From a virus, in IMG/VR virus record IMGVR_UViG_3300023223_000360, positions 1 to 40,473 of that record: DNA of 40,473 nucleotides; one strand, 5' to 3'. Position numbers and translations under genes: made by a program. This document shows, piece after piece, positions 1 to 39,293 of this stretch (its first letter is position 1; each line of letters opens with the position of its first letter). The notes under the pieces were generated by a model. That model was not told the origin of the DNA. It worked only from the letters and a program-made list of their open reading frames with translations, and did not search any database.

Positions 1-144
1 GCCTTGACCTATTGCAAATAGCATTATATATTGAGGTAACTTAACAAAAGGAAATAACGAAAAATGGAAAAACCGATCATTATAGAACTACCAAAAATCT
101 CAAGGACTTTATTTACCTATGAGACTTATGGCGTAAAAATGGGC
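1..144. repeat. terminal direct repeat, copy 1
   Basis: Identical to 40330-40473. It covers the first promoter, the leader and the first 81 bases of the gene at 64. The repeat means the molecule closes on itself with a unit of about 40,329 bp. This could be an assembler overlap of a circular or circularly permuted genome, or a true short direct terminal repeat; one sequence cannot decide. Confidence 0.95.
4..59 (+). promoter_or_regulatory. phage promoter P1 with leader
   Basis: TTGACC (4-9), 17 bp spacer, TATATT (27-32), then AACTTAAC (38-45) and an AAAGGAAATAACG leader before the start codon at 64. The spacer holds a CTATT-GCA-AATAG dyad containing TTGCAA. It is the member closest to a sigma70 consensus of a family of eight similar promoters in this genome. 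In the closed molecule it is divergent from the RHH gene at 40229. Confidence 0.8.
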
Positions 145-399
145 ATAACTTGGCCTGTGTGCTATCATTTTGAAAATAAAACATACGTACCCCTAGAGCA
201 TTGGATCGTACTAGGCTACTGTACTGACCCAAGCCTGTCAAGTTGCGCAGGTGGCAAGAGACCATTTGCTGTTATGTATGAACTACAAAAGGATATTAAA
301 AAAGATATATGGGGAGACGATTTACATAAAGCAGGTCTGAAAGCTTGGTATCACTATAAAACACTACCTGTATTCACTTCTTTGGTAGGTGATAGATAA
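64..399 (+). CDS. hypothetical protein, first gene of the plus-strand early block
   Basis: A 111-residue protein I do not recognise. The start follows the conserved AGGAAATAAC leader of promoter P1. It is moderately aromatic (several Trp and Tyr) with two Cys near residue 56-61 and no signal peptide or membrane segment. It is the first gene transcribed from P1 and overlaps the next gene by one base (TAATG), so the two are probably translationally coupled. The position suggests an early function such as host takeover; that is inference only. Confidence 0.75.
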   Translation: MEKPIIIELPKISRTLFTYETYGVKMGITWPVCYHFENKTYVPLEHWIVLGYCTDPSLSSCAGGKRPFAVMYELQKDIKKDIWGDDLHKAGLKAWYHYKTLPVFTSLVGDR

Positions 400-575
400 T
401 GGCGCTTAATACATACGAATACGAGATAGCTTTTGAATGCGCAAATACTGGCGAGCTAAAGGTAGTCAATAAAATATACACCACTAACAATAAAAGCGAT
501 GCCAATGCCGGAATACGTGATTATTGCGCTAATAATAAAACAATGATCGCTCCAATAGCTAGACGAATTAAATAA
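399..575 (+). CDS. small hypothetical protein
   Basis: A 58-residue ORF whose ATG overlaps the stop of the preceding gene (TAATG at 397-401). No motif recognised; the middle is rich in Asn and Thr. Strict coupling to its neighbour and gap-free packing support it as a real gene. A hairpin and the conserved leader follow immediately. Confidence 0.6.
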   Translation: MALNTYEYEIAFECANTGELKVVNKIYTTNNKSDANAGIRDYCANNKTMIAPIARRIK

Positions 576-580
576 TAATA

Positions 581-605
581 AGGGCCTGCGTTAAATGCAG
601 ACCCT
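581..605 (+). other. intercistronic RNA hairpin before a leader
   Basis: AGGG.CTGC pairs with GCAG.CCCT around a GTTAAAT loop, with one internal mismatch. It sits between the stop at 575 and the AAAAAGGAAATAAC leader of the gene at 625. It has no T-tract, so it is more likely a processing or stability element than a terminator. Similar hairpins precede leaders at 2374-2387 and 30239-30254. Confidence 0.5.
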
Positions 606-624
606 CAACCAAAAAGGAAATAAC

Positions 625-1104
625 ATGAAAAACATAATTATAATAGCAATGGTGATTTTTACCGCATCTTGTTCTACGGTATCAACTAAACAGCTTGATC
701 CGAGGATTACGGCAATACAGAAAGAATACAGCAATCCAAAGACTTATACAGACACTTATGATTGCTCCAATAAATCCGCCGACATCTTGGAAGAACTTCA
801 TCGGATAGGCATTGAAGCCGAGATTCATGTAGTAGGAGCGTTTATGAGCTTACATGCTTGGGTTTATATTGTAGAGACTGGACACGTTATTGACTCAACA
901 TCAATGACTAACTATCCTGCTTGGCTTGATTATAAGGGACAAATTATGCGCCCTGCCTACAAGTGCAAGATTACGTATGAAGACCTTCAAGTATTGCTCT
1001 ATGACCCTAAAAAGGCTAAGTCATGGAAGCCAAAGAGAAAGATAAAGCCTTGGATATTAAAAATAATAAGAAATGTTAAAGAATACAAAGGGGTAGTAAA
1101 ATGA
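625..1104 (+). CDS. predicted lipoprotein with transglutaminase-like C/H/D triad
   Basis: 159 residues. The start at 625 is chosen because it directly follows AAAAAGGAAATAAC; an in-frame ATG at 595 would include the upstream hairpin. Residues 1-16 form a lipoprotein signal ending TASC, with Cys16 as the likely lipidated residue. After it, DCSNK (Cys47), LHAWV (His77) and VIDST (Asp90) have the order and local context of the papain/transglutaminase-like fold, where Cys, His and Asp form the active site. A secreted, membrane-anchored enzyme or binding protein expressed early by a phage could modify the envelope or block superinfection; this role is inferred. It overlaps the next gene by 4 bases. 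Confidence 0.7.
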   Translation: MKNIIIIAMVIFTASCSTVSTKQLDPRITAIQKEYSNPKTYTDTYDCSNKSADILEELHRIGIEAEIHVVGAFMSLHAWVYIVETGHVIDSTSMTNYPAWLDYKGQIMRPAYKCKITYEDLQVLLYDPKKAKSWKPKRKIKPWILKIIRNVKEYKGVVK

Positions 1105-1736
1105 AAAACATAATTTTAACAGAGCATGTACGAGGTAAATTACAGGCAAAATTTAGAATAATGTCAAGAACTGGCCGAGGCTTTGTCGAAAACGGCGGAG
1201 AGGTTAAGCTAAACTTATATAAAGATTTTGGCCATATCTCTAAAATGACTGGATTGACAGAAAAAACGCTGTGGCGAATTTACCACGATTATACTTATAT
1301 GAATATTAAGCAATCGACATTTTCAAAAATAGATACAGCTTATAATGAGTTTTGTGTGGAGCCTAATAAGGCAGTTCGTAAATGGCTCAAATTAGACAGT
1401 GAAGAAATCCCTGTTATTACAAAAACCGTAAAAATTGAAGCACCACAAGAATATTTTTTTGATATTGACTCAAGCAAGGGCCGATATGTTAGATTTGACT
1501 ATAACACTAACGAGCTTGAATATTCCGACAATGATGATTTTTCTTCACCGCCAGTAAATGAAAAGCTCGAGACTTTAAAAAGAACTTTCGAAGAATTCAA
1601 AGAAGCGGTTCGCGATTTAGCGTCAAGAAACACTGAGGTAAAATTGATGGATGCTTATGACGATGATATTTTCTTTAACACAAATGATCTTGCAACGGTG
1701 CAATTAAAAGCTTATGAAACAATCGAGGTGTTATAA
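1101..1736 (+). CDS. HTH-containing putative regulator
   Basis: 211 residues. Around residues 43-85, GHISKMTGLTEKTLWRIY followed by a helix containing STFSKIDTAYNEF matches the helix-turn-helix layout of XRE/Cro-type proteins. The C-terminal half is acidic, unrecognised and probably helical. An AAAGGGG site precedes the ATG, which overlaps the lipoprotein stop by 4 bases (ATGA-type). It could regulate the phage promoter family or the host. The HTH call is fairly sure; the target is unknown. Confidence 0.65.
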   Translation: MKNIILTEHVRGKLQAKFRIMSRTGRGFVENGGEVKLNLYKDFGHISKMTGLTEKTLWRIYHDYTYMNIKQSTFSKIDTAYNEFCVEPNKAVRKWLKLDSEEIPVITKTVKIEAPQEYFFDIDSSKGRYVRFDYNTNELEYSDNDDFSSPPVNEKLETLKRTFEEFKEAVRDLASRNTEVKLMDAYDDDIFFNTNDLATVQLKAYETIEVL

Positions 1737-1913
1737 ATGAGTGAACGAACAGACGAAGACATAAAAGCAAGCAATGACGGGATTTTGAAAACTGTTGAGG
1801 CTTACAACGAGGCCGAGGACATTAAAGATAATAGCTGTCGGGATTGTGGAATTTATTTAATTTATGGTGGTTTGTGCTTTGATTGCCATAATAAGTTGAC
1901 AAAAGAACTATGA
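1737..1913 (+). CDS. small zinc-ribbon protein
   Basis: 58 residues, starting directly after the stop of the HTH gene (TAA then ATG). The C-terminal half carries two CxxC knuckles, CRDC and CFDC, about ten residues apart, typical of a zinc ribbon of the DksA/TraR-like or generic phage type. The N-terminal half is acidic and helical. It is the last gene of the first plus-strand unit, followed by a terminator-like RNA structure. Zinc binding is inferred from the Cys spacing. Confidence 0.6.
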   Translation: MSERTDEDIKASNDGILKTVEAYNEAEDIKDNSCRDCGIYLIYGGLCFDCHNKLTKEL

Positions 1914-1941
1914 CGACTTAATTTAATATTGTTAAGTATAT

Positions 1942-2020
1942 AAAACTTACTAGGTTTTTAACTGCGAGCCGAAAGGCATCTACCGCAATGTTATTTCCCC
2001 TCCCTAGTAAGTTTTTTTTT
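1942..2020 (+). terminator. large-loop terminator or terminator-ended small RNA
   Basis: A 13 bp perfect stem (AAAACTTACTAGG at 1942-1954 with CCTAGTAAGTTTT at 2003-2015) runs into nine Ts. Its 48-base loop is far larger than a normal terminator loop and holds a nested hairpin: TGCG/CGCA outside, GCC-GAAA-GGC with a GNRA tetraloop inside. Bases 1988-2000 (ATGTTATTTCCCC) stay unpaired and are complementary to the GGGAAATAACAT leader used by many genes here. It ends the 64-1913 transcript. It may also accumulate as a small RNA, which is inference. Confidence 0.75.
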
Positions 2021-2059
2021 GCCCGTAAAAAATAAATCAATAAAAGGTGTTGCGCCTGC

Positions 2060-2123
2060 TTGCAATGTTGCGGATAGCAATTATATTAAGAGTAGTAAGA
2101 TAACTTAACGAAATAGGAAATAA
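2060..2123 (+). promoter_or_regulatory. phage promoter P2 with leader
   Basis: TTGCAA (2060-2065), 16 bp spacer, TATATT (2082-2087), AACTTAAC (2102-2109), then an AGGAAATAAC leader before the gene at 2128. The 32 bases from the -10 through the ACTTAAC box are identical to promoter P3 at 22456-22487. Confidence 0.8.
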
Positions 2124-2127
2124 CAAA

Positions 2128-2364
2128 ATGAACAACGAGCTAAAGATCGCCAAAAGAGAAGCCAAAGCGCTAGGAATAAACACGAAGTTTGAAGTGACAC
2201 GAGACTCAACAGGATGCTATGATGTCACTCAATACGGTAAAGACTTAGCAAACGGTTATAATATAACAGAATGTAGAGTATTCGCCATAAACGAATTAAT
2301 AAGCGAACATTACGCAAGATTAGACCGCCAAGAAGAAGCAAGACTCGAAAGAGCCGAAGCCTAA
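2128..2364 (+). CDS. hypothetical protein
   Basis: 78 residues, first gene behind promoter P2, with an AGGAAATAAC leader placing the start. A charged, probably helical protein: lysine-rich at the N-terminus and ending in a Glu/Arg-rich helix. No family recognised. It precedes recombination genes and may share their transcript. A reverse-strand ORF over this region is a shadow. Confidence 0.65.
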   Translation: MNNELKIAKREAKALGINTKFEVTRDSTGCYDVTQYGKDLANGYNITECRVFAINELISEHYARLDRQEEARLERAEA

Positions 2365-2373
2365 ACCAAAACG

Positions 2374-2387
2374 GCGGGGAAACCCGC
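2374..2387 (+). other. GNRA-capped intercistronic hairpin
   Basis: GCGGG-GAAA-CCCGC, a 5 bp GC-rich stem with a GNRA tetraloop, just after the stop at 2364 and before the AAAAAGGAAATAAC leader at 2415. Only three Ts follow, so it is a weak terminator at best. It more likely stabilises or processes the mRNA. Confidence 0.5.
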
Positions 2388-2414
2388 TTTAACAATAACA
2401 AAAAAGGAAATAAC

Positions 2415-2672
2415 ATGTGTTTAGATACAACGATTAAAAATGATGCCGATAAAGTGATCGAGCCAATAATGATAACCAAAAAGCAAGAGTTAGTTTTTCG
2501 ACGGTCTTGTTATTTATTGGAGCATAGCGGGAATAATGGCTATGCCAATATAGATGATTGGTCGCCGAAAGATGTGGAAAATGTGCTTTACTTTATCAAT
2601 CTAAGGTTGTCACAAAGTGAAGCCAAAGGGTTAAGATGTGTTTTAATAGCAAAAAATAACGAGGTTAATTAA
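2415..2672 (+). CDS. hypothetical protein
   Basis: 85 residues with an ideal leader (AAAAAGGAAATAAC) directly before the ATG. It has scattered Cys (positions 2, 32 and 79 or nearby) but no recognisable zinc motif. It lies two bases upstream of the ERF recombinase gene, so it is probably co-transcribed and may assist recombination or replication. No homology is claimed. Confidence 0.65.
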   Translation: MCLDTTIKNDADKVIEPIMITKKQELVFRRSCYLLEHSGNNGYANIDDWSPKDVENVLYFINLRLSQSEAKGLRCVLIAKNNEVN

Positions 2673-2673
2673 T

Positions 2674-5535: not shown

Positions 5536-6396
5536 TTAGGATTGTATTTTGAATCTTTTTGATATTGCTGTTGTTAATAATTGAACGTCATTTGTTAAAG
5601 TTACAAACCTATTGTCCAAATTTATAGACGCTTTTGGCGCTACTTTTAGCGTTGTTATTGTAACAGCGTTCATGATTAAAGCGTTTAATACTCCACTGAC
5701 AACGGTTAATGTCGTTATCGTTAAAGCTCCGCTAGTTTGCAAATCTAACTGTGCGGTATCGTCCATTAATGCTGTCGTTATAGCTGTTACGCCATCTAAA
5801 GCGATTAATTGCCCGCCTGTTAAGTCAATGTCGGGTAAATCGCTATTTGACTCACAAAGCCCGCCGGATTGATTTATTTTTGTCATTGTAACAGTAGAAG
5901 AAATTAAAGTCGTTCCACCATGAAGATTAAATGTACCGACAACATTGGCCGATAAATCAGAACCGATACCGACCGAGCCACTCTTTATTAAAAAATTGGT
6001 ATTTGCATTATTAGCTATTATATCAAGAGCGGATAAACCGTCGACAGTTGCGCCAGTGGTATAAACCGTAACCTCGCATGCTGTTGTCGTTCCTAAATCG
6101 ATTAATATTCTGCTACTGCCTAAACCAGTTTGTCCCGATAATTTACCGCCGATGTCTAATATTGTCGTAGCTATCTGCAGGTATTCGCCTGCATCACCGC
6201 CAAGAGTTCCGGTGTAGCTTTGTGATACATGCAAAGAATCTAAAACGATTGCAGATTGTCCGAGTCCTAAATTACAAGCGACTCCGCTATCTTTAAAATA
6301 AACATCATCGCCCGCAATAGGTACACCGCTTGGTGTCCAATTACCCGCAACGCTCCAATCTTGACTCAATGAGCCGGCCCAAACTTTAACAGCCAT
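5536..6396 (-). CDS. predicted beta-solenoid surface protein, paralogue A
   Basis: 286 residues. The N-terminus (VKVWAG..DWS..GNW.PSGVP.AGDDVYF) is a motif found in bacterial adhesin-like repeat proteins. The rest is a run of short strands rich in Thr, Gly, Val and Asn with a period of about 20 residues, as expected for a beta-helix. It is directly followed on the genome by a paralogue of identical length (6399-7259). Its place downstream of the tail fibre genes suggests a tail-tip or fibre accessory that binds host glycans. Confidence 0.65.
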   Translation of the reverse strand: MAVKVWAGSLSQDWSVAGNWTPSGVPIAGDDVYFKDSGVACNLGLGQSAIVLDSLHVSQSYTGTLGGDAGEYLQIATTILDIGGKLSGQTGLGSSRILIDLGTTTACEVTVYTTGATVDGLSALDIIANNANTNFLIKSGSVGIGSDLSANVVGTFNLHGGTTLISSTVTMTKINQSGGLCESNSDLPDIDLTGGQLIALDGVTAITTALMDDTAQLDLQTSGALTITTLTVVSGVLNALIMNAVTITTLKVAPKASINLDNRFVTLTNDVQLLTTAISKRFKIQS

Positions 6397-6398
6397 CT

Positions 6399-7259
6399 TT
6401 AAAACTCCATATTTAAAATTTTGCTCGTTGAATCAATTTCAATATTATTTGTAAGCGTCATTAAATCAATATCTAAATCAACCAATCCGCCTTTGCTCAT
6501 TATTATATCTGTAACCGTTAAGTCTTTAGATAATAAACTGGCTGTACCGCCTTTGCTATTAATGGTCGTTATTGTTCCGACACCTTTAGCGACAAATGCG
6601 CCCTCGTCTTCAATTGTTAGCGTGGTTAAGTCACCCGCAAACTGTGTAAATGTACCGCTTTTTAATACTGCTGTACCGATGTTAAAATTAGCGTGAATAA
6701 TTCCGCCGTCTAAATCCATCGAAGTTATTGTAACGCCCGCACCAGTTACAGCACGACCGCCGGAAACATATAAATCGTTTAATGTTCCAGTAGCATCGGC
6801 ATCGATTAAAACACCTAATGAACCCGCCCGCACTTTTGCGTCAATAGTTCCCGAGCCTAAACCCGTTAATATTACGCATTGGCCAGTTTGTTCATCCCCA
6901 ATAAAATCCGAGCCAAAGCCCGCAGAATTTAATATATCAAGTGTGGTATTGCCATTAACGAACTCAAGAGCCACAAAACTAGGGCCGGTATTTTGTCCAT
7001 CTTCTGACGAACCTATAAAAATATCAGTAGCATCTAGTTTTAAACTCTCGCTAAATAATCCAATTTGACCACGAAAACTTTGTAAAATATGTAAGCTATC
7101 AAGATTTAAAGCGTTTTGATCTAGGTTAACATAAATCGAATTAACGCTATTTTTTATATAAACATCGTCGCCACTTATAGGTAATACTCCGCCTTTCCAA
7201 TTTGCGGTGTTTGACCAATCGCCATCCGTTGCATTACCTGTCCAAATTTTAACCGACAT
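6399..7259 (-). CDS. predicted beta-solenoid surface protein, paralogue B
   Basis: 286 residues, the same length as paralogue A. It shares the N-terminal pattern VKIW.G...DWS..ANW.GGVLPISGDDVYI and the following LDSLH.LQS element. The remainder has diverged but keeps the repetitive Gly/Thr/Asp strand pattern. Only two bases separate the stop of this gene from the start of the paralogue, which indicates tandem duplication. Likely a virion surface protein; receptor binding is inference. Confidence 0.65.
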   Translation of the reverse strand: MSVKIWTGNATDGDWSNTANWKGGVLPISGDDVYIKNSVNSIYVNLDQNALNLDSLHILQSFRGQIGLFSESLKLDATDIFIGSSEDGQNTGPSFVALEFVNGNTTLDILNSAGFGSDFIGDEQTGQCVILTGLGSGTIDAKVRAGSLGVLIDADATGTLNDLYVSGGRAVTGAGVTITSMDLDGGIIHANFNIGTAVLKSGTFTQFAGDLTTLTIEDEGAFVAKGVGTITTINSKGGTASLLSKDLTVTDIIMSKGGLVDLDIDLMTLTNNIEIDSTSKILNMEF

Positions 7260-9341: not shown

Positions 9342-11735
9342 TTAATTTAATGGATATGAGCCGTTGATTTGAAGTATATCATTTACAGCCCATGTCATAG
9401 GAGAGGTTGCTGTGACTATATTGTTTGAGGAATCTTTAATTACACCTGTTGATGTCGCATTGGCTGTCACAAGAGCTACGCCTTGATAATGCGTTGCTCC
9501 TGCATCGAGTATCATTATCGGCATAGGGTATAGAGTGTTTGACTGTGTGAATGATGTTGCAGGTAACCCCGAAACACCTAAATTACCAGTAACCACGCTT
9601 GTGCTACCCATAATAACACCACATTGAATATGACACACTTTGTCAATGATCTGATATTCGCCCCATACTGTACCATTGCCCAATGTAAGGTTAATAAAAG
9701 TTGGCGTGAAGCTGTTTGAAAGGCCGATTATGTTACCGCCAAGATGTATGTCTTTTATTTGAAAACTCGCTAGTCCAAAATCACGAGTGTTGTTTGTTAT
9801 GTTCCCGTTTTCATCTGTTAAGAATCCTGCACCAATTGTGCTACCATAGCCAGTACCACCCGATCTTGGGTCACCAACATAAGCGGAGCTTGCGCCTCCA
9901 ATAGATATAAGGTATCCGACTTCTGTGCCATCATCCTCAAGCTGTATAATTTTGCCTACTGATCCTGTGCGGTTCAGAGTTGCGACAGTTGCAGAGACTT
10001 TGGTTATTGTTGCGCCATTAGCAGTTAAAGCGCCCTCGCCAGTTACAGCAAACGTTTTTGTTCCTGCGCCGTTTTGACCTTCTAAGATATCGTCGGTATC
10101 TGCGCTTGAGCCTCTTTTGATTGTTAGTGCGCCACCTGTTGAGTCGGTCGTTATTTGAGGCGTTACGGATAAATCATAAGTGTTTTGAAAGTCTTGCGCT
10201 CCTGCTGAACCGCCCGCCGAGCTTGTTTCGCTTGTTATTGTTACAAACTTTGCGTCACCCGATGCTATAGCCGAATCAAGATCGGTCACACCTTCTTGAA
10301 TTATTAAGGCTGACACGAAACTACCAGTTGCCAAAAGAGGGCTAAGTACTGGTGACTCAGAAAATATTGCCGATTCTGCAAGAACTAACGATGTATATTC
10401 GGCTTGTCCGTATGTAGTCAGAATTTTATCATTTTGTCCAAAGAAATAAAATCTCTTTATCGTAAATCTATTATTTGTAACACCGTTTAACGTGCCCGTT
10501 CCATCGTCCCAAAAATCCGGATCAACAGTTGTTTTATTAATTATCGGTGTAAATCCGCCGACCCCATCTTGATAGAAAGCTGTCCAATCGCCGGCGATTA
10601 CAGGATTTTGCGAAGGGTTTGTCGCTTCTGCAGGGTTTTGTGGATCAACATCTCGATTAATCCATGGAAGAGTTGTTGAGCCGACTGTTTTCTGTATAGT
10701 TAAATCGCCACTAATAGAAGAGTTAAAAGTGTTTCCTTCATTTATAGGCCCAAGTTTTCGAACATAATCAAAAAGAGCTGATACGCCTTGATATGCTTGA
10801 ACTGAATTAGTCGCAACATTGGTAATCGTTGTAAGGTCGTTATGCACTACAGCGTCAAGAACAATATTTTGTTTTATTTGCTGAGAAGAAAGAACCGTAT
10901 CAAGAGCTTGTTGAACATCGCCATTAACATCTATATATAAACTTGTAAAAATACCCGAAGCTATACCGGTAACAGGTTCCGCAGTTAAACCCGCAAATTC
11001 TATAAAAGTTATAACTGGCGGAGATGTAGGTATTGCAAAATCAATAATAACGCCTCGACCTGCTGAAACATCGAACTTTGCAGGATCGCCACCGTTGACA
11101 GTAACCGCCATTCCGTGAATAATACCAGTAATTAAACCGATTGATTCAGATATTGGCACGTTTGTTATTTTGGCCGTTTGTTCAGTCGTGCTATCATTAA
11201 CATATATTTCAATAATATTTCTAGCGTTTATTGAGAACGCACCTAAAACAACAGTAACCGAAGCGGGCAAAGTCAAAACCGCATTTGATGTGCTCGTTAT
11301 TTCAAGACGTATATTTTGGCCTTGTCTTAAATTTGAAAATGTAAAAGTCTCCGGCGAGCTTATTGATTTTACTTGTAAGCCACCTTTTGAACCATCGACA
11401 TCTAAAGCCGGTATCGTATAAGGCCCATACATTTGCTCTATGTTGTCAAAATGCGCTTTATTGATACTCATTAAGGCTTCGGCGCCTATTGCGAACGTTT
11501 GGCCAGTTGTGCCGTCTTGCGCTCTTGTGACCGTTAAAGTATTGCCTGTAATATCTGTAACAAGCATATACTCAAGGCTTGAACCGCTTTTAACTCTTAA
11601 ATAAAAAGGATTATCGGCAGTTGCACCAGTAAATAATATACTCGGAGTTACGACATCAAAAGTCGTTTGTCCTGCGGTTGTGATCGCTGTGGCTAATTGA
11701 GTTATAGCGTTATTTTTATATTCATTCTTAATCAT
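9342..11735 (-). CDS. tail fibre protein
   Basis: 797 residues, the largest protein in the window. The N-terminus (about 1-95) is a small beta domain with a GTTGQTFA stretch seen in baseplate-attachment regions of phage fibres. A middle of Gly/Thr/Ser/Asn-rich strands follows, then a C-terminal head with many Gly and Thr, as in receptor-binding tips. No enzymatic motif is evident. Its position behind tape measure and tip genes, with a DUF4376-like gene next to it, supports a host-recognition fibre. Confidence 0.78.
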   Translation of the reverse strand: MIKNEYKNNAITQLATAITTAGQTTFDVVTPSILFTGATADNPFYLRVKSGSSLEYMLVTDITGNTLTVTRAQDGTTGQTFAIGAEALMSINKAHFDNIEQMYGPYTIPALDVDGSKGGLQVKSISSPETFTFSNLRQGQNIRLEITSTSNAVLTLPASVTVVLGAFSINARNIIEIYVNDSTTEQTAKITNVPISESIGLITGIIHGMAVTVNGGDPAKFDVSAGRGVIIDFAIPTSPPVITFIEFAGLTAEPVTGIASGIFTSLYIDVNGDVQQALDTVLSSQQIKQNIVLDAVVHNDLTTITNVATNSVQAYQGVSALFDYVRKLGPINEGNTFNSSISGDLTIQKTVGSTTLPWINRDVDPQNPAEATNPSQNPVIAGDWTAFYQDGVGGFTPIINKTTVDPDFWDDGTGTLNGVTNNRFTIKRFYFFGQNDKILTTYGQAEYTSLVLAESAIFSESPVLSPLLATGSFVSALIIQEGVTDLDSAIASGDAKFVTITSETSSAGGSAGAQDFQNTYDLSVTPQITTDSTGGALTIKRGSSADTDDILEGQNGAGTKTFAVTGEGALTANGATITKVSATVATLNRTGSVGKIIQLEDDGTEVGYLISIGGASSAYVGDPRSGGTGYGSTIGAGFLTDENGNITNNTRDFGLASFQIKDIHLGGNIIGLSNSFTPTFINLTLGNGTVWGEYQIIDKVCHIQCGVIMGSTSVVTGNLGVSGLPATSFTQSNTLYPMPIMILDAGATHYQGVALVTANATSTGVIKDSSNNIVTATSPMTWAVNDILQINGSYPLN

Positions 11736-11738
11736 AAT

Positions 11739-13823
11739 TTATCCTAGTTCTTTACCAAGCACTCCGCCCGCTGTTGTGTTATCAATTATTAAGGACAATG
11801 TACCAACGCCCTTTCCTTCTACATCTGTTGTCGTTATCGGCGAATCCGGCTCAAGTATCAACGTTACCTCTTCCGGAGTGATAATGGCGTCCGGATACTC
11901 AATACTTATTAAGCTCATTTTGTCGTCTATATTTACTTTACAAGGAATATTAATATTTTCAACAAAAGCCGAAACGGTGATAACTTCGTTTTCGTGGTTT
12001 GTTGGCACTGCAATAGTATCTGTAAAGCTTGCACTGCTAGAGTCTACAAAAACCGCATCAACTCCAAAATTACCACCTTCGGAAGATTGAACGAGATCAC
12101 CATTAGGCCAAGTTAGCTTAAAATTAATTAGGTGTATTCCGTCATCGTCGAAATCTGTAAATTGAAATCCGCCGAAATCCTTTAAAGATGCGGTGATCTC
12201 TAATTGCTGACCGTCTTGTACTTCTGCGACGTCTGCAGTTAATTCCATAGTGACGACTTTTGTTTCGAAAGTTACACTACTACTTAGACCCGAATTTGGG
12301 ATAGTTGCGTTAATAGTAGCTGTCTCATTATAATGACATTCCAAATTAGCAACAACCGTTATTGCGTCGCCGGCTTTATCCGGTGACACGCTATATTGAT
12401 TTATTGCCTCTATCACGAAAAGCCCACCCTCTTCGCCAACAGGCTCGAATTCTATCGCCTGCCCGCCAATCGTTATGGTATATTTTATATTATATACACC
12501 ATTCCATTCGGCAAAATAAGCGCCGTCATGCTCTAATAATGCTTCGAGGTCTATTTCGTCACCTGTGCCGATGTCTACTTCCGAGGATTCAAGAGATAAG
12601 ACAAAAGTCATTTCCGGCGTTGAAGTTGGGCCGGTTGTCGGGTTGTCCGATTGTTCGCTGTTCTCGCCGTCACAATCTGACACTAAAGGAATATGTCCGT
12701 TAATATCGATAAGAAACTTCTTTATATTTGCGAGAAAAATATCATTTACCCAAGTTTCAACATCTGAAATATTAGAAAAAGCCACGCTGTCGCATGAAAA
12801 ATCAGTGCTCATACACAAAAGCTCTTTCCAATTACATTCGCTTGATTCTCCGGATTCGGCAATTTCTTTTGATAATCTTGTATGATAAATTTCATTTTGG
12901 TTTCTTATTTTTAACCATTTATTATCTACTGAAAAAAGTGTCGGTGTTGGCGTTGGTGTTGGCGTTGGATTGTCGCCGAAAGTATAAGAATTACCGCCTA
13001 AAGAAATATCCATAAGGATATCATTAGTTTGATAATTTACCAAAAAACCTAAATGCAAATTAAATTCTGTGACTTCCGCAATAGGTACATTTCTGACTAA
13101 ACGGTCTTCGTCTTCTTGCTGAAACGGTGGCAAATCTTCTACTGAAACGACCATTAATTTAGAATCTCCGGCAGTAAATCCGCTTACTGGCGATGTTGCG
13201 CTCGGTGTTTCGCTTTCAGATGCGGAGCTACTTGACGTTGTTTTTATAAACTCTATCATTGCGTAACATATTTGACCCGTTTTAATAACAATCGGTGTAT
13301 CATCTATATCCTCGCCGTCTTCATCCTGTCCATTATTACCCGCTTCCATTAATTCAAAAGAACCGAAATTTGTGTGACAATCACCGCCGACAACCATGAC
13401 AAAGCCGTTTGCCGAATGTGTGTTATTGGAATCACTAACGCCGATAAACTTAAAAGATGAATACATCGTTACAAGTTCAGCTAACCATACGGCGCCATCT
13501 TCGCCACTTGTTAGTGTTGCTTTAACAATGCTGTCCTGTGGGATATGATCGTTTCTAGCGTGATTTAAAATAATATCAGCGCCCCATGCTCTCTCAGTTG
13601 CAACATATACGCCATCGACATTTCTAACGACTGCAACGGCATTGTAAGCGACTGGATTTGTATTTGGTATTGCACTTCCTACACGTAAGAAAGCGGTATC
13701 CGAAAGAAACGGTAACGATTTCGGCGCTATCGGTGGCGTACCTTTAAAGCCTAATACTTCATTACTCGCTTTATTGAACTTTTTAAAAGCTTTAAGCGTA
13801 ATTTCATAGCCGTCATCACTCAT
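11739..13823 (-). CDS. multi-domain tail protein with Ig-like repeats
   Basis: 694 residues. The N-terminal part (about 1-200) is a beta-rich structural domain. A Ser-rich linker (SSSSASESE) and a (PT)n linker (NPTPTPTPTPT) divide the protein, the latter encoded by a 12-base tandem repeat near 12943-12968. After about residue 410 come several Ig-like segments that repeat a pattern of V..GD.I.L.A.L.....F. Ig-like modules on virions commonly bind surface sugars. Exact role in the tail is not known. Confidence 0.65.
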   Translation of the reverse strand: MSDDGYEITLKAFKKFNKASNEVLGFKGTPPIAPKSLPFLSDTAFLRVGSAIPNTNPVAYNAVAVVRNVDGVYVATERAWGADIILNHARNDHIPQDSIVKATLTSGEDGAVWLAELVTMYSSFKFIGVSDSNNTHSANGFVMVVGGDCHTNFGSFELMEAGNNGQDEDGEDIDDTPIVIKTGQICYAMIEFIKTTSSSSASESETPSATSPVSGFTAGDSKLMVVSVEDLPPFQQEDEDRLVRNVPIAEVTEFNLHLGFLVNYQTNDILMDISLGGNSYTFGDNPTPTPTPTPTLFSVDNKWLKIRNQNEIYHTRLSKEIAESGESSECNWKELLCMSTDFSCDSVAFSNISDVETWVNDIFLANIKKFLIDINGHIPLVSDCDGENSEQSDNPTTGPTSTPEMTFVLSLESSEVDIGTGDEIDLEALLEHDGAYFAEWNGVYNIKYTITIGGQAIEFEPVGEEGGLFVIEAINQYSVSPDKAGDAITVVANLECHYNETATINATIPNSGLSSSVTFETKVVTMELTADVAEVQDGQQLEITASLKDFGGFQFTDFDDDGIHLINFKLTWPNGDLVQSSEGGNFGVDAVFVDSSSASFTDTIAVPTNHENEVITVSAFVENINIPCKVNIDDKMSLISIEYPDAIITPEEVTLILEPDSPITTTDVEGKGVGTLSLIIDNTTAGGVLGKELG

Positions 13824-13831
13824 AAAAAACC

Positions 13832-14821
13832 TTATCTCTCTTTACGTTTCGTCGGATAAGTCGAAAAATCAACTCTCGGTAATGTATCCCATAAAAGAAA
13901 TATTTCTTTACCGAGTGCGCTTCCTTTAAAAGGTTGTCCCTGTAAATCTAAAGGTACTGGCTCAGTAATCCACCCGCCGTCACCATCTGCAATTTTACTA
14001 TATTTTTCGTCACTATAGCTATATTTTCTTGTACCTGCATTTAATAACTTGCGTCTAAATCCTTTAAAATCTCCGGCATTGACGGCGATTGTTTGCGGGC
14101 CATTGCCTTGGCTAAAACCATCTACTCTATAAGTTCTTTCGCCTACTAAATCGAAATTTAACTGATAGGTATATTGTGCTTTAACATAATATTCATCTGT
14201 ATTAGGCTTTTTAGCTTCATTGGTTACATAAGCTATAAGTTTCGCACAATAAGGCGGTATGGTTATATTTTGAATAGTAAACGGCTTATCATTGACACGA
14301 CCAACGCCCAAGCGTAAATGATCTTGAATCATATCGTTTTGATTTAATGAAATTGTGACGTTTGGATTATGTAAGTCTTCTGTTAAAGGTGGATTCGTTA
14401 CAGGATCGGACGCTAAATTCATAATATAATTACCGTTCATTCTTTCCTGTATAATTGCCTCGGGATAAGACCAAGTTCCCCAATCGAAAGTCGGCGCCAT
14501 ATCTAAAGGATCGAGTCCGCCATCATCGCCATTACCGCCACCAACGCCAAGACCTTCTTGATTGGTGTATGAACATTCAATCAACCATGTACTGGCTGTC
14601 CCTTCACTTATTAAAGAAGCGGTAACAGTATCTAAAAATAATCCTCGTAATGTTGGATGCGGACTTCCCGATGTAAATAATACATGTCTAGTCGCTATAT
14701 CTAATTCATCGCCGACGCCAAATTCAGTTCTGACATAATAATTCTCAGTTCTCGATTTTGATGTGGCAGAATGCTCTTGAGTTCGTCCAGTTTTCAATAA
14801 TATAGGTGATCCAATAATCAT
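13832..14821 (-). CDS. tail tip/baseplate protein
   Basis: 329 residues, beginning at the stop of the tape measure gene (1-base overlap). In siphophages the gene after the tape measure encodes a distal-tail or tip protein, and the composition here (beta-rich, Gly-rich GVGGGNGDDGG loop near residue 115, no signal) fits. I do not recognise a named domain, so the role is inferred from synteny. Confidence 0.6.
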   Translation of the reverse strand: MIIGSPILLKTGRTQEHSATSKSRTENYYVRTEFGVGDELDIATRHVLFTSGSPHPTLRGLFLDTVTASLISEGTASTWLIECSYTNQEGLGVGGGNGDDGGLDPLDMAPTFDWGTWSYPEAIIQERMNGNYIMNLASDPVTNPPLTEDLHNPNVTISLNQNDMIQDHLRLGVGRVNDKPFTIQNITIPPYCAKLIAYVTNEAKKPNTDEYYVKAQYTYQLNFDLVGERTYRVDGFSQGNGPQTIAVNAGDFKGFRRKLLNAGTRKYSYSDEKYSKIADGDGGWITEPVPLDLQGQPFKGSALGKEIFLLWDTLPRVDFSTYPTKRKER

Positions 14822-22433: not shown

Positions 22434-22501
22434 TTGCAATCCGCAATAGCCCATGTATATTAAGAGTAGTAAGATAACTTAACGAAAAAAAGGAAATAAC
22501 G
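22434..22501 (+). promoter_or_regulatory. phage promoter P3 with leader
   Basis: TTGCAA (22434-22439), 16 bp spacer with the TTGC-N5-GCAA dyad over the -35, TATATT (22456-22461), AACTTAAC (22476-22483), and AAAAAAAGGAAATAACG directly before the gene at 22502. It is nearly identical to P2 over the -10 to ACTTAAC region. It gives the inserted cassette its own transcription in the direction opposite to the head operon. Confidence 0.85.
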
Positions 22502-22639
22502 ATGACACAGAAAATGAAAGAGCTACTAATTAAAATCGGCGAAAACAATATCAAGGTTTTAGAGGCAAAAAAACCAAAGGGTTATAAATCATTAATAACC
22601 TTATGGGAAAAAGATATTAAAGAAGCAAGGGGTAATTAA
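22502..22639 (+). CDS. small hypothetical protein, cassette gene 1
   Basis: 45 residues, helical and lysine-rich (LIKIGENNIKVLEAKKPKGY). The ideal AAGGAAATAAC leader precedes its ATG. No known family. It is the first gene of the plus-strand cassette inserted in the minus-strand head operon. Gene calling may miss it because of its length. Confidence 0.65.
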   Translation: MTQKMKELLIKIGENNIKVLEAKKPKGYKSLITLWEKDIKEARGN

Positions 22640-22640
22640 T

Positions 22641-22811
22641 ATGACACTTGACCAATTGCACGACCTAGCAGAGACATCGCCGAGGCATGAGAGATTCTTA
22701 ACCAAAATACATAATAAGGTAATTAAGCAATTAAGAAAAGAAAATAGGCCATCAAATAGCGATAATGTGATTCAATTAAAAGAAAAGTTTTGCCAAAGGT
22801 ACTCGCTATGA
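22641..22811 (+). CDS. small hypothetical protein, cassette gene 2
   Basis: 56 residues, basic and helical, beginning two bases after the previous stop. Its TGA overlaps the ATG of the PAPS-reductase-like gene (ATGA), so translation is likely coupled. No motif recognised. Tight packing suggests it functions with the enzyme that follows. Confidence 0.6.
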   Translation: MTLDQLHDLAETSPRHERFLTKIHNKVIKQLRKENRPSNSDNVIQLKEKFCQRYSL

Positions 22812-23704
22812 TATGCCATTTCTCATGCGGTGCGACTTCGGCAGTTGCGACAATCCTTGCATTAATGGAAGACAGCGAAGAAGCAATCGAGGCTGTATAC
22901 GCTGACCCAAGCATGGAACATGAAGACAATAAAAGATTCATGGAAGACTTTGAAGAGATTGCGGGAATAAAAATAACTGTTCTTAAAAGCAAAAAATATA
23001 AAGACCCTTTTGACGTATTTGACCAAAAAAGATTCTTGTCCGGTGTTTATGGCGCACCCTGCACTACTGAATTAAAGAAAAAGGTTATTGCCGACTACTT
23101 AGCAGAAAGGCTAGTTTTAGAACCTCATGTATTCGGTTTCACCTCAGATGAAGAAAGCAGGATAAAAAGATTTAAGGATAATAACCCCGAGATCGATTTA
23201 AGATTACCTTTAGTTGATAAAGGCTTATCTAAAGACGATTGCTTATTCATACTTAGAGAAATAGGGATAAGTTTGCCGATGATGTACAAGCTAGGCTATA
23301 GAAACGCAAACTGTACTGGCTGTGTAAAAGCTGAGTCGATTGGTTACTGGTCTGCCATTCGTGAAGACTTCCCCGTTATCTTTGAAAAGTTTTCTGAACG
23401 TGAAAGGCTATTTGGCAAAAAAATAGATGGTGTTCCTCGTGGTGTAGCAATTAATAAGCAATATAAAAAATGCGAAGATTGCAAGGATTCCAGTTGCGGT
23501 AATTGTGATAAAAATAATCAAGTTCGTCATCGTGTTTTTTTAGATGAAATACCGAAAGACTTTCCGCCAAAGAGATCAATTAGCTTTTCTTGTGGATATT
23601 CTTGCGGTACTCAAGATATGGAATTTATCGAGGATGAATTAACAAAAGAGCCAACGTTAACAGCTTGGATGATCTTAGAAGACATTAAAAGATGGTTGAG
23701 TTAA
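22808..23704 (+). CDS. PAPS-reductase-like (adenine nucleotide alpha hydrolase) protein
   Basis: 298 residues from the ATG at 22808; AAAGG lies 8-9 bases upstream and an in-frame TTG at 22790 is less likely. Near the start SCGATS is a variant of the SGG.DS PP-loop that binds ATP or adenylyl substrates. APCTTELKK (about 83-91) and NCTGCVKAESIGYW (about 168-181, in pieces) match phage PAPS-reductase-like proteins. Eight Cys in pairs (CTGC, CEDC, CGNC, CGYSCG) suggest zinc or iron-sulphur binding. Relatives include PAPS reductases, DndC and QueC-like enzymes, so it may act on sulphur or nucleic acids. It shares its TTAA stop with the opposing gene. Confidence 0.8.
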   Translation: MICHFSCGATSAVATILALMEDSEEAIEAVYADPSMEHEDNKRFMEDFEEIAGIKITVLKSKKYKDPFDVFDQKRFLSGVYGAPCTTELKKKVIADYLAERLVLEPHVFGFTSDEESRIKRFKDNNPEIDLRLPLVDKGLSKDDCLFILREIGISLPMMYKLGYRNANCTGCVKAESIGYWSAIREDFPVIFEKFSERERLFGKKIDGVPRGVAINKQYKKCEDCKDSSCGNCDKNNQVRHRVFLDEIPKDFPPKRSISFSCGYSCGTQDMEFIEDELTKEPTLTAWMILEDIKRWLS

Positions 23705-29000: not shown

Positions 29001-29141
29001 TTATACCATCCCCAATTCAATTCTAATTTTCGCCATTGCTTGCGCTTTCTCGACCTTGGCTTGGTCTTTCTCGGCTTGCGTTTTAGTTCCAAACATCGCT
29101 TTTACTTTTCTGTCGTAGTTTTGTATTGATTGCTGTGTCAT
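29001..29141 (-). CDS. small basic hypothetical protein
   Basis: 46 residues, placed directly after promoter P4 and the AAAAAGGAAATAAC leader, so it is the first gene of this unit. Helical, Lys/Gln/Ala-rich (AEKDQAKVEKAQAMAK). It was missed by ORF length limits. No function known. Confidence 0.65.
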   Translation of the reverse strand: MTQQSIQNYDRKVKAMFGTKTQAEKDQAKVEKAQAMAKIRIELGMV

Positions 29142-29205
29142 GTTATTTCCTTTTTAATATTAGTGTTAAGTAATTATAATATAGTGCCTATATTGCGTAT
29201 TGCAA
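29142..29205 (-). promoter_or_regulatory. phage promoter P4 with leader
   Basis: Read on the minus strand: TTGCAA (29200-29205) with TTGC-N5-GCAA dyad, 16 bp spacer, TATATT (29178-29183), ACTTAAC (29165-29171) and AAAAAGGAAATAAC before the gene at 29141. The -35 overlaps the 3' end of the membrane-protein gene at 29188. Confidence 0.83.
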
Positions 29206-29487: not shown

Positions 29488-29671
29488 TTTCGCTCCCTTC
29501 TGTCCATACATCACACTGGAATATAACATGAATTCCATGATTGCACTTACTACAATTAATCGAGCTTGTTCTAAAAGGCTCATTGAATTCATCGGGTAAA
29601 TCATCGATGTCGATTTTAATATCTGTCACGTACTCACATTTACTGCAGTAGTGTTTGCCTTTATAAATCAT
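29480..29671 (-). CDS. small zinc-ribbon protein
   Basis: 63 residues with two CSKC knuckles (CSKCEYVTD near the start and INCSKCNHG around residue 39), a classic zinc ribbon. The ends overlap neighbours by a few bases. Such small zinc proteins are common in phage accessory regions; the function is unknown. Confidence 0.65.
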   Translation of the reverse strand: MIYKGKHYCSKCEYVTDIKIDIDDLPDEFNEPFRTSSINCSKCNHGIHVIFQCDVWTEGSENE

Positions 29672-30030
29672 TTGATTAACTCCTTTCTAACTTTAAGCCA
29701 ATATTTGACCGTTGCTTTTTTTTGGTAGCCACGAGGCCCGCCGTTATGGATTTTAGCCAGTACCATAATATTGACAGTACCGTGCTTTTTTGCGTAACGA
29801 TTGCCCCAATACAAAAGATACTTGCTAGCGATCTCTTTGCTTAATTTCGGGCTGTATCGGTCTTTATACGTGTAATTAGTCTTGTATATGCGGTTTACAT
29901 CATCGACAGTAATTTTATGAATCTGCAAAATACCAACAGCTCGGCCATTATCGCCGACTGCGTCCGCCTGCCCGCCCGACTCTACTTGAATCAAAGCGGT
30001 TAATAATATCGTTATTAGTTTAATTAGCAT
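29668..30030 (-). CDS. small lytic transglycosylase (endolysin candidate)
   Basis: 120 residues from the ATG at 30030, with ACAGG 8 bases upstream. LIQVESGG places the catalytic Glu at 17; then GDNGRAVGILQIHKITVDDVNRI and a C-terminal IHNGGPRGYQK in pieces match phage SLT/lysozyme-like transglycosylases. There is no separate signal peptide: the hydrophobic start is part of the catalytic helix. Release of the protein would need a holin. It lies far from the tail-end lysis candidates. Confidence 0.82.
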   Translation of the reverse strand: MLIKLITILLTALIQVESGGQADAVGDNGRAVGILQIHKITVDDVNRIYKTNYTYKDRYSPKLSKEIASKYLLYWGNRYAKKHGTVNIMVLAKIHNGGPRGYQKKATVKYWLKVRKELIK

Positions 30031-30220
30031 CGACATCGCCTGTACCATCGCAACACAAACACTCATTCCATTTGGTCTGCCATTCGCTATAAAACGAATC
30101 AACCTGCACATATACCGATATATCCCAACCGCCCCAACCTAGACAATTTTTACAGTTAGTCTTCGGCTTTGTTTCCCCTTGGTGCATCTTGTCAACTTCT
30201 TTCTGTGATAAAACTTTCAT
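30020..30220 (-). CDS. DnaJ-type zinc-finger protein
   Basis: 66 residues from the ATG at 30220 after a conserved leader (GGGAAATAAC). CKNCLGWGG and CLCCDGTG are two CxxCxGxG-type modules as in the DnaJ cysteine-rich domain. The N-terminus is short and helical. Many phages have such small DnaJ-like zinc proteins of unknown role. An upstream longer reading includes the leader and hairpin and is rejected. Confidence 0.65.
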   Translation of the reverse strand: MKVLSQKEVDKMHQGETKPKTNCKNCLGWGGWDISVYVQVDSFYSEWQTKWNECLCCDGTGDVDAN

Positions 30221-30261: not shown

Positions 30262-30399
30262 TTATTTGTAGCTGTTGGCTAATTCTTGAGCTTCTTCCAT
30301 TGTATTTTCGTTCCAAGTATAAATTCCGTCTACTACTACCCAAAAACGTCCGGCTTGAAATTTAGTGTCGATTGTTACTTTTTGCGTTTCGTTGTTCAT
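30262..30399 (-). CDS. small hypothetical protein
   Basis: 45 residues with a GAGGAAATAAC leader, first gene behind promoter P5. Strand-rich start (QKVTIDTKFQAGRFWVVVDG) with a YTWNENTMEEAQ helix. No family recognised. Too short for many gene callers, but promoter, leader and packing support it. Confidence 0.6.
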   Translation of the reverse strand: MNNETQKVTIDTKFQAGRFWVVVDGIYTWNENTMEEAQELANSYK

Positions 30400-30464
30400 G
30401 TTATTTCCTCGTTTGTGTTATTGTTAAGTTAAGTATAATATAAACGCTCTATTGCATAATGCAA
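30400..30464 (-). promoter_or_regulatory. phage promoter P5 with leader
   Basis: Minus strand: TTGCAT (30459-30464) with TTGC-ATTAT-GCAA dyad, 16 bp spacer, TATATT (30437-30442), doubled ACTTAACTTAAC (30423-30434), then GAGGAAATAAC before the gene at 30399. It lies downstream of a strong terminator. Confidence 0.83.
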
Positions 30465-32126: not shown

Positions 32127-32154
32127 AATATAAACCATCTGCTATTATTTACAA
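32127..32154 (-). promoter_or_regulatory. phage promoter P6 (diverged)
   Basis: Minus strand: TTGTAA (32149-32154), 16 bp spacer, TATATT (32127-32132). The spacer ends GATGGTT as in P8. The downstream AGTAGC.TATTAACT resembles a decayed ACTTAAC box, and no AGGAAATAAC leader follows, which fits a non-coding transcript. Confidence 0.65.
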
Positions 32155-36393: not shown

Positions 36394-36411
36394 TTTCGTT
36401 ATCTCCTTTTT

Positions 36412-36594
36412 TTATACGCTAACAATATTAAATTTATCTTCAAGCTTTTCACCTGTAACCGTAAAACCCTCTTTAGGCATGTAATATTTTTTTGAATCGG
36501 GGTCTTGAAAATAAGTGTACTCGTCGCCAACTTTCCAACCATTTTTTGCGGACGCTTTATCCACTACAAATTTTACTGCTACTAATTTATTCAT
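36412..36594 (-). CDS. small hypothetical protein upstream of SSB
   Basis: 60 residues from the ATG at 36594, chosen because it follows GGAGATAACGAAA exactly as ssb does. Beta-rich with YTYFQDPDSKKYYMPKEG. No family recognised. A longer reading would overlap the upstream membrane protein. Confidence 0.6.
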   Translation of the reverse strand: MNKLVAVKFVVDKASAKNGWKVGDEYTYFQDPDSKKYYMPKEGFTVTGEKLEDKFNIVSV

Positions 36595-36766
36595 TTTCGT
36601 TATCTCCATTTTTATTATTATTAATATTCTTACTTTCCAAATAATCAAGCACGATTTTTAGACCTAACCAAGCGACTGTTACAAAAAAGCACCATGATAT
36701 AGTCAAGCAAATCCACCCGACAAAAGTCATAAAACTATGCGCATCCATATAGTCGTAAATATTCAT
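36587..36766 (-). CDS. small membrane protein
   Basis: 59 residues with one hydrophobic segment (about 14-40, GWICLTISWCFFVTVAWLGL) and an Asn/Lys-rich end. It overlaps the next start by 8 bases. No family recognised. Position among replication genes does not explain it. Confidence 0.55.
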   Translation of the reverse strand: MNIYDYMDAHSFMTFVGWICLTISWCFFVTVAWLGLKIVLDYLESKNINNNKNGDNENE

Positions 36767-36769
36767 TTA

Positions 36770-37543
36770 TTATTCACCAACCTTAAAAAGTACACCAATT
36801 GCATGTCCGAAAACAGGATGCCAACAATGCGAATAGGCTTTAAACTGGCCTAAATCTTGATTGTAGATTACGAATCCTGCAAAGTCTTCATGGCTTGCCC
36901 AAGCAGATAAAAGAAAGGTTTCATCAAGATAACTAACTGAGTTCATGTCATCGAATTTTGTCCACTTATCTGACAGCTTGACCTCAACAACCTTAAATTT
37001 CCCCTTATCTTCAAGCTCTTCATAAGGATTAACGGGCTCGGCAGGCTTTTGGAGTTTGCGGATATTAGGCCATCCAATAGTCCCGTCCTTAGGAATATAA
37101 GAGTCTTTACGAAATGGGTCAATTCCTATAAGTTGCCATGTGAACCAATCACTATCTTTATTATTAAACTCACACTCTTCACCTTCTTCAAAATCCAAAA
37201 TAGCCTCTCTAACATCCTCTTTTGAAGAGCCATACACTTTTGGCTTTTTCTCAGCTATAAAGCCAGTCTTGACTTTCTTGGCGACAAAGTCAACGTATTT
37301 AACGACATACATTTTTGCCCATTCTTGGGTGATGTCTCTAAGCTTAATATACTTTTCAAAAACCCCTGTAGTCATTAAATCCAAATACTCATCTATTATA
37401 TAAAAATCCGTATCAAGATCAATCTGAGTCTCTGTGTTACCGCAATACCAACTACAACCCTTACTAAAAGCGTACTCTTGAAACGCTATTTTTTCCGCAT
37501 TCGACTTGCCTCTCATATCAATCTTTGTATTTTTTAAATCCAT
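36770..37543 (-). CDS. hypothetical protein
   Basis: 257 residues, start overlapping the HTH gene stop; GGAG precedes the ATG. Acidic, aromatic, with many Trp/Tyr residues and DFEEGEECEF, EGEECEF... elements, and beta-rich segments at the end (FAGFVIYNQDLGQFKAYSHC). No signal or membrane span and no recognised family. Its size and place before ssb hint at a nucleic-acid-related role, unproven. Confidence 0.65.
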   Translation of the reverse strand: MDLKNTKIDMRGKSNAEKIAFQEYAFSKGCSWYCGNTETQIDLDTDFYIIDEYLDLMTTGVFEKYIKLRDITQEWAKMYVVKYVDFVAKKVKTGFIAEKKPKVYGSSKEDVREAILDFEEGEECEFNNKDSDWFTWQLIGIDPFRKDSYIPKDGTIGWPNIRKLQKPAEPVNPYEELEDKGKFKVVEVKLSDKWTKFDDMNSVSYLDETFLLSAWASHEDFAGFVIYNQDLGQFKAYSHCWHPVFGHAIGVLFKVGE

Positions 37544-37767
37544 TTTGAAAACTCCGGCTGAGCTTTTACCCTTGCAAAAATCACTTTATCGGCTTTGATA
37601 AAATCTTTGACATCTTGCATCGATATAAATTTAACTAAAAACGGCGCTTCGCCTTTCTGCTCCCATCGCCACAAACACGAGCGATCACAACCCAAAAGCT
37701 TGACTAATTCGCCAATCTCTAACGGCTTGGTAATATCTTGTAAATGATGTAGTCTATTTTTTTTCAT
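37534..37767 (-). CDS. HTH/excisionase-like DNA-binding protein
   Basis: 77 residues from the ATG at 37767 after AAAGGAAATAGC. LEIGELVKLLGCDRSCLWRWEQKGEAP is a MerR/AlpA-like helix-turn-helix with the WEQKG wing; KFISMQDVKDFIKADK follows, as in excisionase-type proteins. Such proteins regulate promoters or recombination. With no integrase present, a transcriptional role is favoured. Confidence 0.7.
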   Translation of the reverse strand: MKKNRLHHLQDITKPLEIGELVKLLGCDRSCLWRWEQKGEAPFLVKFISMQDVKDFIKADKVIFARVKAQPEFSKWI

Positions 37768-37768
37768 G

Positions 37769-37966
37769 CTATTTCCTTTCATCTAAATTATACATTAAAT
37801 CGTCAAAAGAATTACTACAGGACGCATCAAAATCATTTTTAAAAAAAACTTTTGCACCTTTCTCGATCTCTAAGACCTCTGAAACATAACAACGCCTAAA
37901 GGCTCTCCTATAAGGCCCGTCACCTTGACTGTCACTGATGACATCTAATACAATAAACTCTTTCAT
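37769..37966 (-). CDS. small hypothetical protein
   Basis: 65 residues, first gene behind promoter P7 with an AAAGGAAATAGC leader. Mixed alpha/beta with YRRAFRRCYVSEVLEIE and an acidic end. No family recognised; the stop lies 1-2 bases from the next start. Confidence 0.6.
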   Translation of the reverse strand: MKEFIVLDVISDSQGDGPYRRAFRRCYVSEVLEIEKGAKVFFKNDFDASCSNSFDDLMYNLDERK

Positions 37967-38027
37967 GCTATTTCCTTTTTTTATACGTTAAGCTACTTCA
38001 ATATAATTGCTATTAGCAATATTGCAA
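37967..38027 (-). promoter_or_regulatory. phage promoter P7 with leader
   Basis: Minus strand: TTGCAA (38022-38027), 16 bp spacer, TATATT (38000-38005), GCTTAAC box (37987-37993) and AAAAAAAGGAAATAGC before the gene at 37966. It drives the small genes, HTH protein and probably ssb. Confidence 0.8.
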
Positions 38028-38038
38028 CATGCAAAAAC

Positions 38039-38233
38039 TTAGTTTTCTATAATTAATAATGATTTTATACCCTTAAAAACACTTTGATCACTGCTCGGGA
38101 ATACCCAATTACATGGAGCAATCCATTTATCGCCGTTCTCGCATACCCCGATAGAAGCAACAGAACTCCCTCCGCTTTTCCATTTAACCACATAAAGGCC
38201 CACTTTTAATTTTTTTACCCGTTCCTTATTCAC
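38039..38233 (-). CDS. small hypothetical protein
   Basis: 64 residues, basic start and Trp/Gly/Ser-rich core (VVKWKSGGSSVASIGVCENGDKW in pieces), SH3-like in size. Start is one base from the upstream stop. No family recognised. It precedes promoter P7. Confidence 0.55.
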   Translation of the reverse strand: MNKERVKKLKVGLYVVKWKSGGSSVASIGVCENGDKWIAPCNWVFPSSDQSVFKGIKSLLIIEN

Positions 38234-38234
38234 C

Positions 38235-38468
38235 TTACTTTCCTCGCTCGCTTATTAGCTTCTTATAAAAAGGCATATTCTTGTTTATCTTCAGCCTTAT
38301 CTTTAAATCCCTGTACTGCTCTTCGTCTAGCCCGTCAATCAGCTCCAGTATAAAATTGACCTTGAGCTTTTCTGCTTGCTTGTCTACTTTTTGATAATGC
38401 AGTATTAAATTCAACAAATCTTTTCTTGTCAAATCCTTTAAGTCTTCTGTTAATTGCTCGATGTTCAT
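38235..38468 (-). CDS. small helical hypothetical protein
   Basis: 77 residues, predominantly charged helices (EQLTEDLKDLTRKDLLNLILHYQK). Overlaps the DnaC-like gene by one base and probably serves the same replication unit. No family recognised; a short partner of the loader is a guess. Confidence 0.6.
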   Translation of the reverse strand: MNIEQLTEDLKDLTRKDLLNLILHYQKVDKQAEKLKVNFILELIDGLDEEQYRDLKIRLKINKNMPFYKKLISERGK

Positions 38469-39235
38469 TATTTAGCCCTTCTGTCGTTATGAATTAATAC
38501 ACAATTGTCGCCTGCGCTCAATCTTGATGCCAGTCGTCCGCTGTAACGTGCCGAAATATCGCTTATCGGGACGTTTGCGGTCATTATCGTCTTTAGACAG
38601 TTATTGTATCGATAACATAACAAGTCTTCAATTATACGCCTTGAATCGTCGCTCTCTCGTTCTGCGCCTAAATCATCAATAAACAAAATATTAACATCTC
38701 GGTATTTTTTAATCGCTTTTTCTGAATCGCCACCGTCTTTTTTATACTCGGCTTGATACAAAGAAACTAATTGCCCCGACTCAACACATTTGACATTAGG
38801 CTCAATAAATCTAGTGAGCTTAACAAAAACAGCTTTTTCAATTGCCCGTTTCAAAGTCCAGTAAATTAAATGCGTCTTTCCCGAACCGTATTCACCGCAT
38901 AAATAAAAACACCATGAATCACCATTTATTAAAAAATTCATAAATTGCTTTAAAGCTTGATTTGTTTTTGGGTTTAAATCGTCATCATGAAGTTTAATAA
39001 ACCTCGGAATATCTAAAGCGCCTAAATCAGTACTTATTGAATTACGATTATCTAAAGTTTGCTTTGCGTTTTCCTGCTCCGATTTAATCACCATAAAACA
39101 ATCTTCGCAAATTAAGTCGGGCAAAGGTCTTTCAAGATTAACCGCTGAACTTTCGCACTGGCCGATCTGCTCGTCGGTATAAGCCCGCTTCTTGCATCGG
39201 GTACAATTATATTTATCTATCGTTTCTTGTTTCAT
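38468..39235 (-). CDS. DnaC-like helicase loader (AAA+ ATPase)
   Basis: 255 residues. The N-terminus has a Cys pattern (CTRC at 11-14, then CEDC at 43-46) like a zinc-binding partner-recognition domain. The AAA+ core has GEYGSGKTH (Walker A, about 114-122), VNILFIDDLG (Walker B), and TANVPISDISARYSGRLASRL (sensor I and following part). It loads the replicative DnaB-type helicase; the phage lacks one, so it must use the host helicase. It follows the initiator gene. Confidence 0.88.
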   Translation of the reverse strand: MKQETIDKYNCTRCKKRAYTDEQIGQCESSAVNLERPLPDLICEDCFMVIKSEQENAKQTLDNRNSISTDLGALDIPRFIKLHDDDLNPKTNQALKQFMNFLINGDSWCFYLCGEYGSGKTHLIYWTLKRAIEKAVFVKLTRFIEPNVKCVESGQLVSLYQAEYKKDGGDSEKAIKKYRDVNILFIDDLGAERESDDSRRIIEDLLCYRYNNCLKTIMTANVPISDISARYSGRLASRLSAGDNCVLIHNDRRAK

Positions 39236-39293
39236 GTTATTTCCTTTTTGCTGTTAAGTTAATTTAATATAAACCATCTAATGCAATTTGCAA
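39236..39293 (-). promoter_or_regulatory. phage promoter P8 with leader
   Basis: Minus strand: TTGCAA (39288-39293), 16 bp spacer, TATATT (39266-39271), TTAACTTAAC box (39253-39262) and AAAAAGGAAATAAC before dnaC-like at 39235. It separates the initiator gene from the loader, allowing independent control. Confidence 0.83.

Follow-up and report, generated by a model that had tools for sequence, protein, structure and literature searches.

Seven promoters on both strands of this phage genome form one family, and a 13-bp dyad, TTGC-N5-GCAA, lies in the core of each of them, exactly or with one mismatch. That these sites are a promoter family with one common dyad is well supported across the window, i.e. 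the whole stretch of 40,473 nt analysed here. The family, the dyad, the two registers it takes within the promoters and the modules that the promoters share can all be read directly from the DNA. With such an arrangement one regulator could probably switch most of the gene groups of the phage together. In the reading we favour, to which we give about an even chance, the sigma70-type promoters P1 to P5, P7 and P8 are paralogues that carry a 13-bp operator, and a phage-encoded dimer, most likely the product of the gene at 1101, represses them.

The record begins and ends with exactly the same 144 nt as a direct repeat (1-144 = 40330-40473), a sign of a circular map, a terminal repeat or an overlap left by assembly. 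Owing to this repeat P1 is present twice, and the genome unit, about 40,329 bp long, is probably circular. The promoters are listed below together with their putative transcription units, the extent of which was taken from gene order:

4-32, also 40333-40361, plus strand: P1, TTGACC, 17 bp, TATATT; ACTTAAC box at 39-45; dyad TTGCAAATAGCAT with one mismatch at 12-24, within the spacer; unit 64-1913, containing the candidate helix-turn-helix (HTH) gene at 1101.
2060-2087, plus strand: P2; exact dyad TTGCGGATAGCAA at 2068-2080, within the spacer; box at 2103-2109; unit 2128 to about 5188, with the recombination genes (Erf annealing protein, BRO-N, exonuclease, VRR-NUC).
22434-22461, plus strand: P3; exact dyad over the -35 at 22434-22446; box at 22477-22483; unit 22502-23704, a cassette on the opposite strand that includes a PAPS-reductase-like gene and lies inside the head-gene block.
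29178-29205, minus strand: P4; exact dyad over the -35 at 29193-29205; box at 29165-29171; first ATG at 29141; followed by a series of small genes towards the terminase large subunit.
30437-30464, minus strand: P5; exact dyad over the -35 at 30452-30464; two overlapping boxes at 30423-30434; first ATG at 30399; unit including the SLT transglycosylase gene at 29668-30111.
32127-32154, minus strand: P6, upstream of tail-fibre-like and virion genes; placed outside the family.
38000-38027, minus strand: P7; exact dyad within the spacer at 38007-38019 and a second exact dyad at 38022-38034, just upstream of and over the -35; box GCTTAAC; unit from 37966 leftwards, with a weakly HTH_17-like protein, SSB and others.
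39266-39293, minus strand: P8; dyad TTGCAAATTGCAT with one mismatch over the -35; box at 39253-39259; unit 38468-39235, with a DnaC-like loader.

P5 comes after a terminator-like stem (30520-30493). The P3 cassette as a whole (22434-23704) comprises the promoter, two small ORFs and the PAPS-reductase-like gene and is situated between the head morphogenesis and head protease genes. The first-pass annotation had described the genes behind these promoters as early or accessory, which agrees with the replication, recombination and accessory units; the label is too narrow, since the P5 unit holds a lysis-type SLT transglycosylase and P4 leads to the terminase.

The same annotation had proposed a family of eight, and all eight hexamer pairs, P1 to P8, are present where it placed them, but only seven belong together in detail. 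At P1 to P5, P7 and P8 a -35-like hexamer, a spacer of 16-17 bp and TATATT are followed by [AG]CTTAAC, a GGAAATARC ribosome site and an ATG; as had been noted, the box is broken in P6 only (in P7 it reads GCTTAAC). The -35 of P1, previously called TTGCAA-like, is in fact TTGACC. P6 was rejected as a full member because it lacks the dyad, an intact box and GGAAATAAC, and it was not among the top 16 sites of a matrix scan; it has 14 nt in common with P8 (AGATGGTTTATATT), and 22 of 28 core bases are identical between the two. Generic sigma70 scans gave no clear excess of promoter-like sites over expectation (21 vs 20.6, 71 vs 63 and 55 vs 45), and the evidence for the family therefore lies in the detail common to its sites. 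TTGCAW-16-TATATT occurs six times in the genome compared with 0.05 expected, and the same string extended by the [AG]CTTAAC box also six times compared with 0.00 expected; in both cases none of 300 dinucleotide shuffles reached six. For a non-circular selection, sites were picked on a rotated map by the -10, the box and GGAAATA only, leaving the -35 and the dyad unused, which returned exactly P1 to P5, P7 and P8 (0 expected).

TTGC-N5-GCAA has six exact copies in the genome, all within promoters of the family, where 1.18 are expected and none of 300 dinucleotide shuffles reached six; two near copies come in addition. Among the seven independently picked sites, the 45 bp upstream contain an exact dyad in five cases and a one-mismatch dyad in the other two, whereas 0.4% of random 45-nt segments have an exact dyad and 1.3% one with at most one mismatch. 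When all 3,328 dyads with 4-nt arms and gaps of 0-12 were compared at these sites, TTGC-N5-GCAA was the best. The exact dyad over the -35 of P3, P4 and P5 and the near copy in P8 had already been pointed out; a second register, in the spacer of P2 and P7 (exact) and P1 (one mismatch), about 8 bp further downstream, had been overlooked. With the -10 hexamer set as -12 to -7, the dyad lies at -34 to -22 in P3, P4, P5 and, with its mismatch, P8, at -26 to -14 in P2 and P7, and at -27 to -15 in P1; the further exact dyad of P7 lies at -41 to -29. All registers overlap the polymerase footprint. A point against the operator reading is that, where the dyad lies over the -35, its left arm doubles as the -35 hexamer. 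The right-arm positions have no role in the sigma70 consensus, and at P3, P4, P5 and P8 this arm is kept (mean 3.75 of 4), compared with 2.4 of 4 at the other spacer positions.

The promoters derive from one another by copying. The cores of P2 and P7 agree at 25 of 28 bases, and the 32 nt of -10 and leader are identical in P2 and P3; P2 has the look of a core of the P7 type fused to a leader of the P3 type. The seven dyads are therefore not fully independent pieces of evidence, and so extensive a sharing of modules would also fit the view that there is no common operator at all, the promoters being recent copies of a strong promoter-leader module that carried the dyad along. We regard this as unlikely: simple copying explains neither the constancy of the arms, next to a diverging dyad centre and spacer, nor the different registers. 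In the operator reading, the family would have spread via copying and recombination of promoter modules, and the ACTTAAC box together with GGAAATAAC would form a common transcribed leader that probably helps translation. The leader resembles that of T7 gene 10, with its epsilon enhancer UUAACUUUAA (PMC9590205, PMC8748333), in that an A/U-rich, UUAACUU-like stretch stands shortly 5' of a strong Shine-Dalgarno (SD) site, a resemblance only; unlike in T7, the stretch here is ACTTAAC, occurs in seven leaders and is not enriched in the leaders of other phage contigs. ACTTAAC was accordingly dropped as a leader element of phages in general: it occurs in 3 of 4,193 leaders and ranks 190th among 210 permutations. 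So was GGAAATAACATG as a promoter-specific element, as it is also found at other genes and in unrelated phages.

The earlier proposal of a phage-specific regulon with its own operator thus stands as far as a promoter family with a common dyad is concerned, and coordinate control follows from this reasonably. Repression, the identity of the regulator and the timing of expression we infer. The dyad registers shift by about 8 bp within the polymerase footprint. An activator would need a fixed face, so this pattern is more in keeping with a repressor that works by occlusion, and suggests one. In the proposed mechanism a phage-encoded dimeric DNA-binding protein would bind TTGC-N5-GCAA and block RNA polymerase, so that most units other than the main late structural block would be turned down together, and P1, whose unit would encode the regulator, would repress itself. 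The candidate regulators are:

1101-1736, plus strand: protein of 211 aa with a weak HTH match at residues 45-77, in P1's own unit.
40086-40229, minus strand: RHH-like protein of 47 aa, read as RHH by eye; a separate gene just upstream of the replication initiator.

We favour the 1101 protein, on weak evidence, because of its weak match to a transcriptional regulator (phrog_11187, E 0.004) and its place in a dyad-carrying unit; homologue searches with it gave none, and its structure model was uninformative (pLDDT 37). The 37534 protein gave a weak excisionase/regulator-like match (E 0.002) in a scan of a subset of the ORFs, and no integrase family was recognised among the proteins in that scan, which leaves a role in lysogeny unsupported. 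It is distinctly improbable, in our estimate, that the orphan 1101 protein represents a new regulator family that silences nearly all units, lysis included, by way of a single operator in two registers, and so switches an extrachromosomal carrier state of an integrase-less phage globally on or off.

The RHH-like protein might instead be the regulator, in the manner of CopG, which represses the copG-repB operon (PMC6607859). Its position directly upstream of the replication initiator fits a CopG-type cop-rep operon, with RHH assigned by eye; profile searches matched it to no family, its single-sequence model is one helix, and it was not found in six relatives searched. Its own upstream region holds an ATACAA-N-TTGTAT palindrome and not TTGC-N5-GCAA, which makes it the weaker candidate, and we consider this assignment very unlikely. 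Upstream of both the RHH-like gene and the replication gene, at 40282-40298, the overlapping palindromes TTGTATACAA and ATACAAGTTGTAT may constitute a separate operator.

The dyad could also be the site of a host regulator through which the phage reads the state of its host. CtrA sites, which cluster in promoter regions of unrelated phages of Alphaproteobacteria and regulate their genes (PMC9437464), are a precedent, and the dyad is not linked to any of the phage's own proteins. The relatives speak against it: records related through the replication-protein domain have only 0-4 copies of TTGC-N5-GCAA each, and L174, one of these records, carries another dyad in a promoter family of its own. 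We hold a host regulator to be unlikely and retain repression by a phage protein as the favoured reading. Among the sequences searched there was no close relative with these promoters; the phage collection gave no near DNA match to the structural block, matches to the terminase go up to about 46%, and several viral contigs that are roughly 50-80% identical in the N-terminal domain of the replication protein do not have these promoters. The promoter-like family of L174 consists of four 65-nt copies:

6393-6457, 11706-11770, 14292-14356 and 17994-18058 of L174: dyad TTTAGAAY-N-RTTCTAAA, followed by TTGCAA and a TATATTTG-type -10.

This family with its different dyad suggests that the arrangement recurs with other sequences. 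Motif-scan matches were rejected as relatives, being either a few single-copy -10/box/SD arrangements without the dyad or coding-sequence-like. In contig L294 an exact TTGC-N5-GCAA (6135-6147) is followed by CTTAAC and AGGAAATAACATG (SD); lacking a matching promoter and being otherwise unrelated, this contig was not counted as a relative either.

Should the favoured reading hold, this uncultivated phage lineage would provide a regulon governed by a single operator and open to testing, as well as a set of natural promoters in which one regulator meets its operator at varying positions; the dyad would in addition serve as a handle for finding an unrecognised phage regulator.

Here a single putative operator sequence is spread over seven promoters in six exact and two near copies. 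Dispersed phage operators are already known, and the present case is a new, well-defined example. The immunity repressor of the mycobacteriophage L5 type has many 13-bp operators or stoperators across the phage genome, some of them in promoters (PMC9283540), and the putative regulator here would likewise use dispersed 13-bp sites. The L5 sites are asymmetric, monomer-bound, more than twenty in number and often outside promoters, whereas those described here are symmetric, about eight, and all in promoter cores, which is not a stoperator pattern. The C1 operators of phage P1 are also scattered over the genome, control several promoters and are asymmetric and longer, in a phage whose prophage is a plasmid; the dispersal over several promoters is shared, but the sites here are symmetric and shorter, and no C1 homologue was identified. 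As in the phages with CtrA sites, one motif is concentrated in phage promoter regions for putative coordinate control, although the dyad differs from the motif of host CtrA. The present example stands out by its predicted operator, which is symmetric and occupies two registers in the promoter cores.
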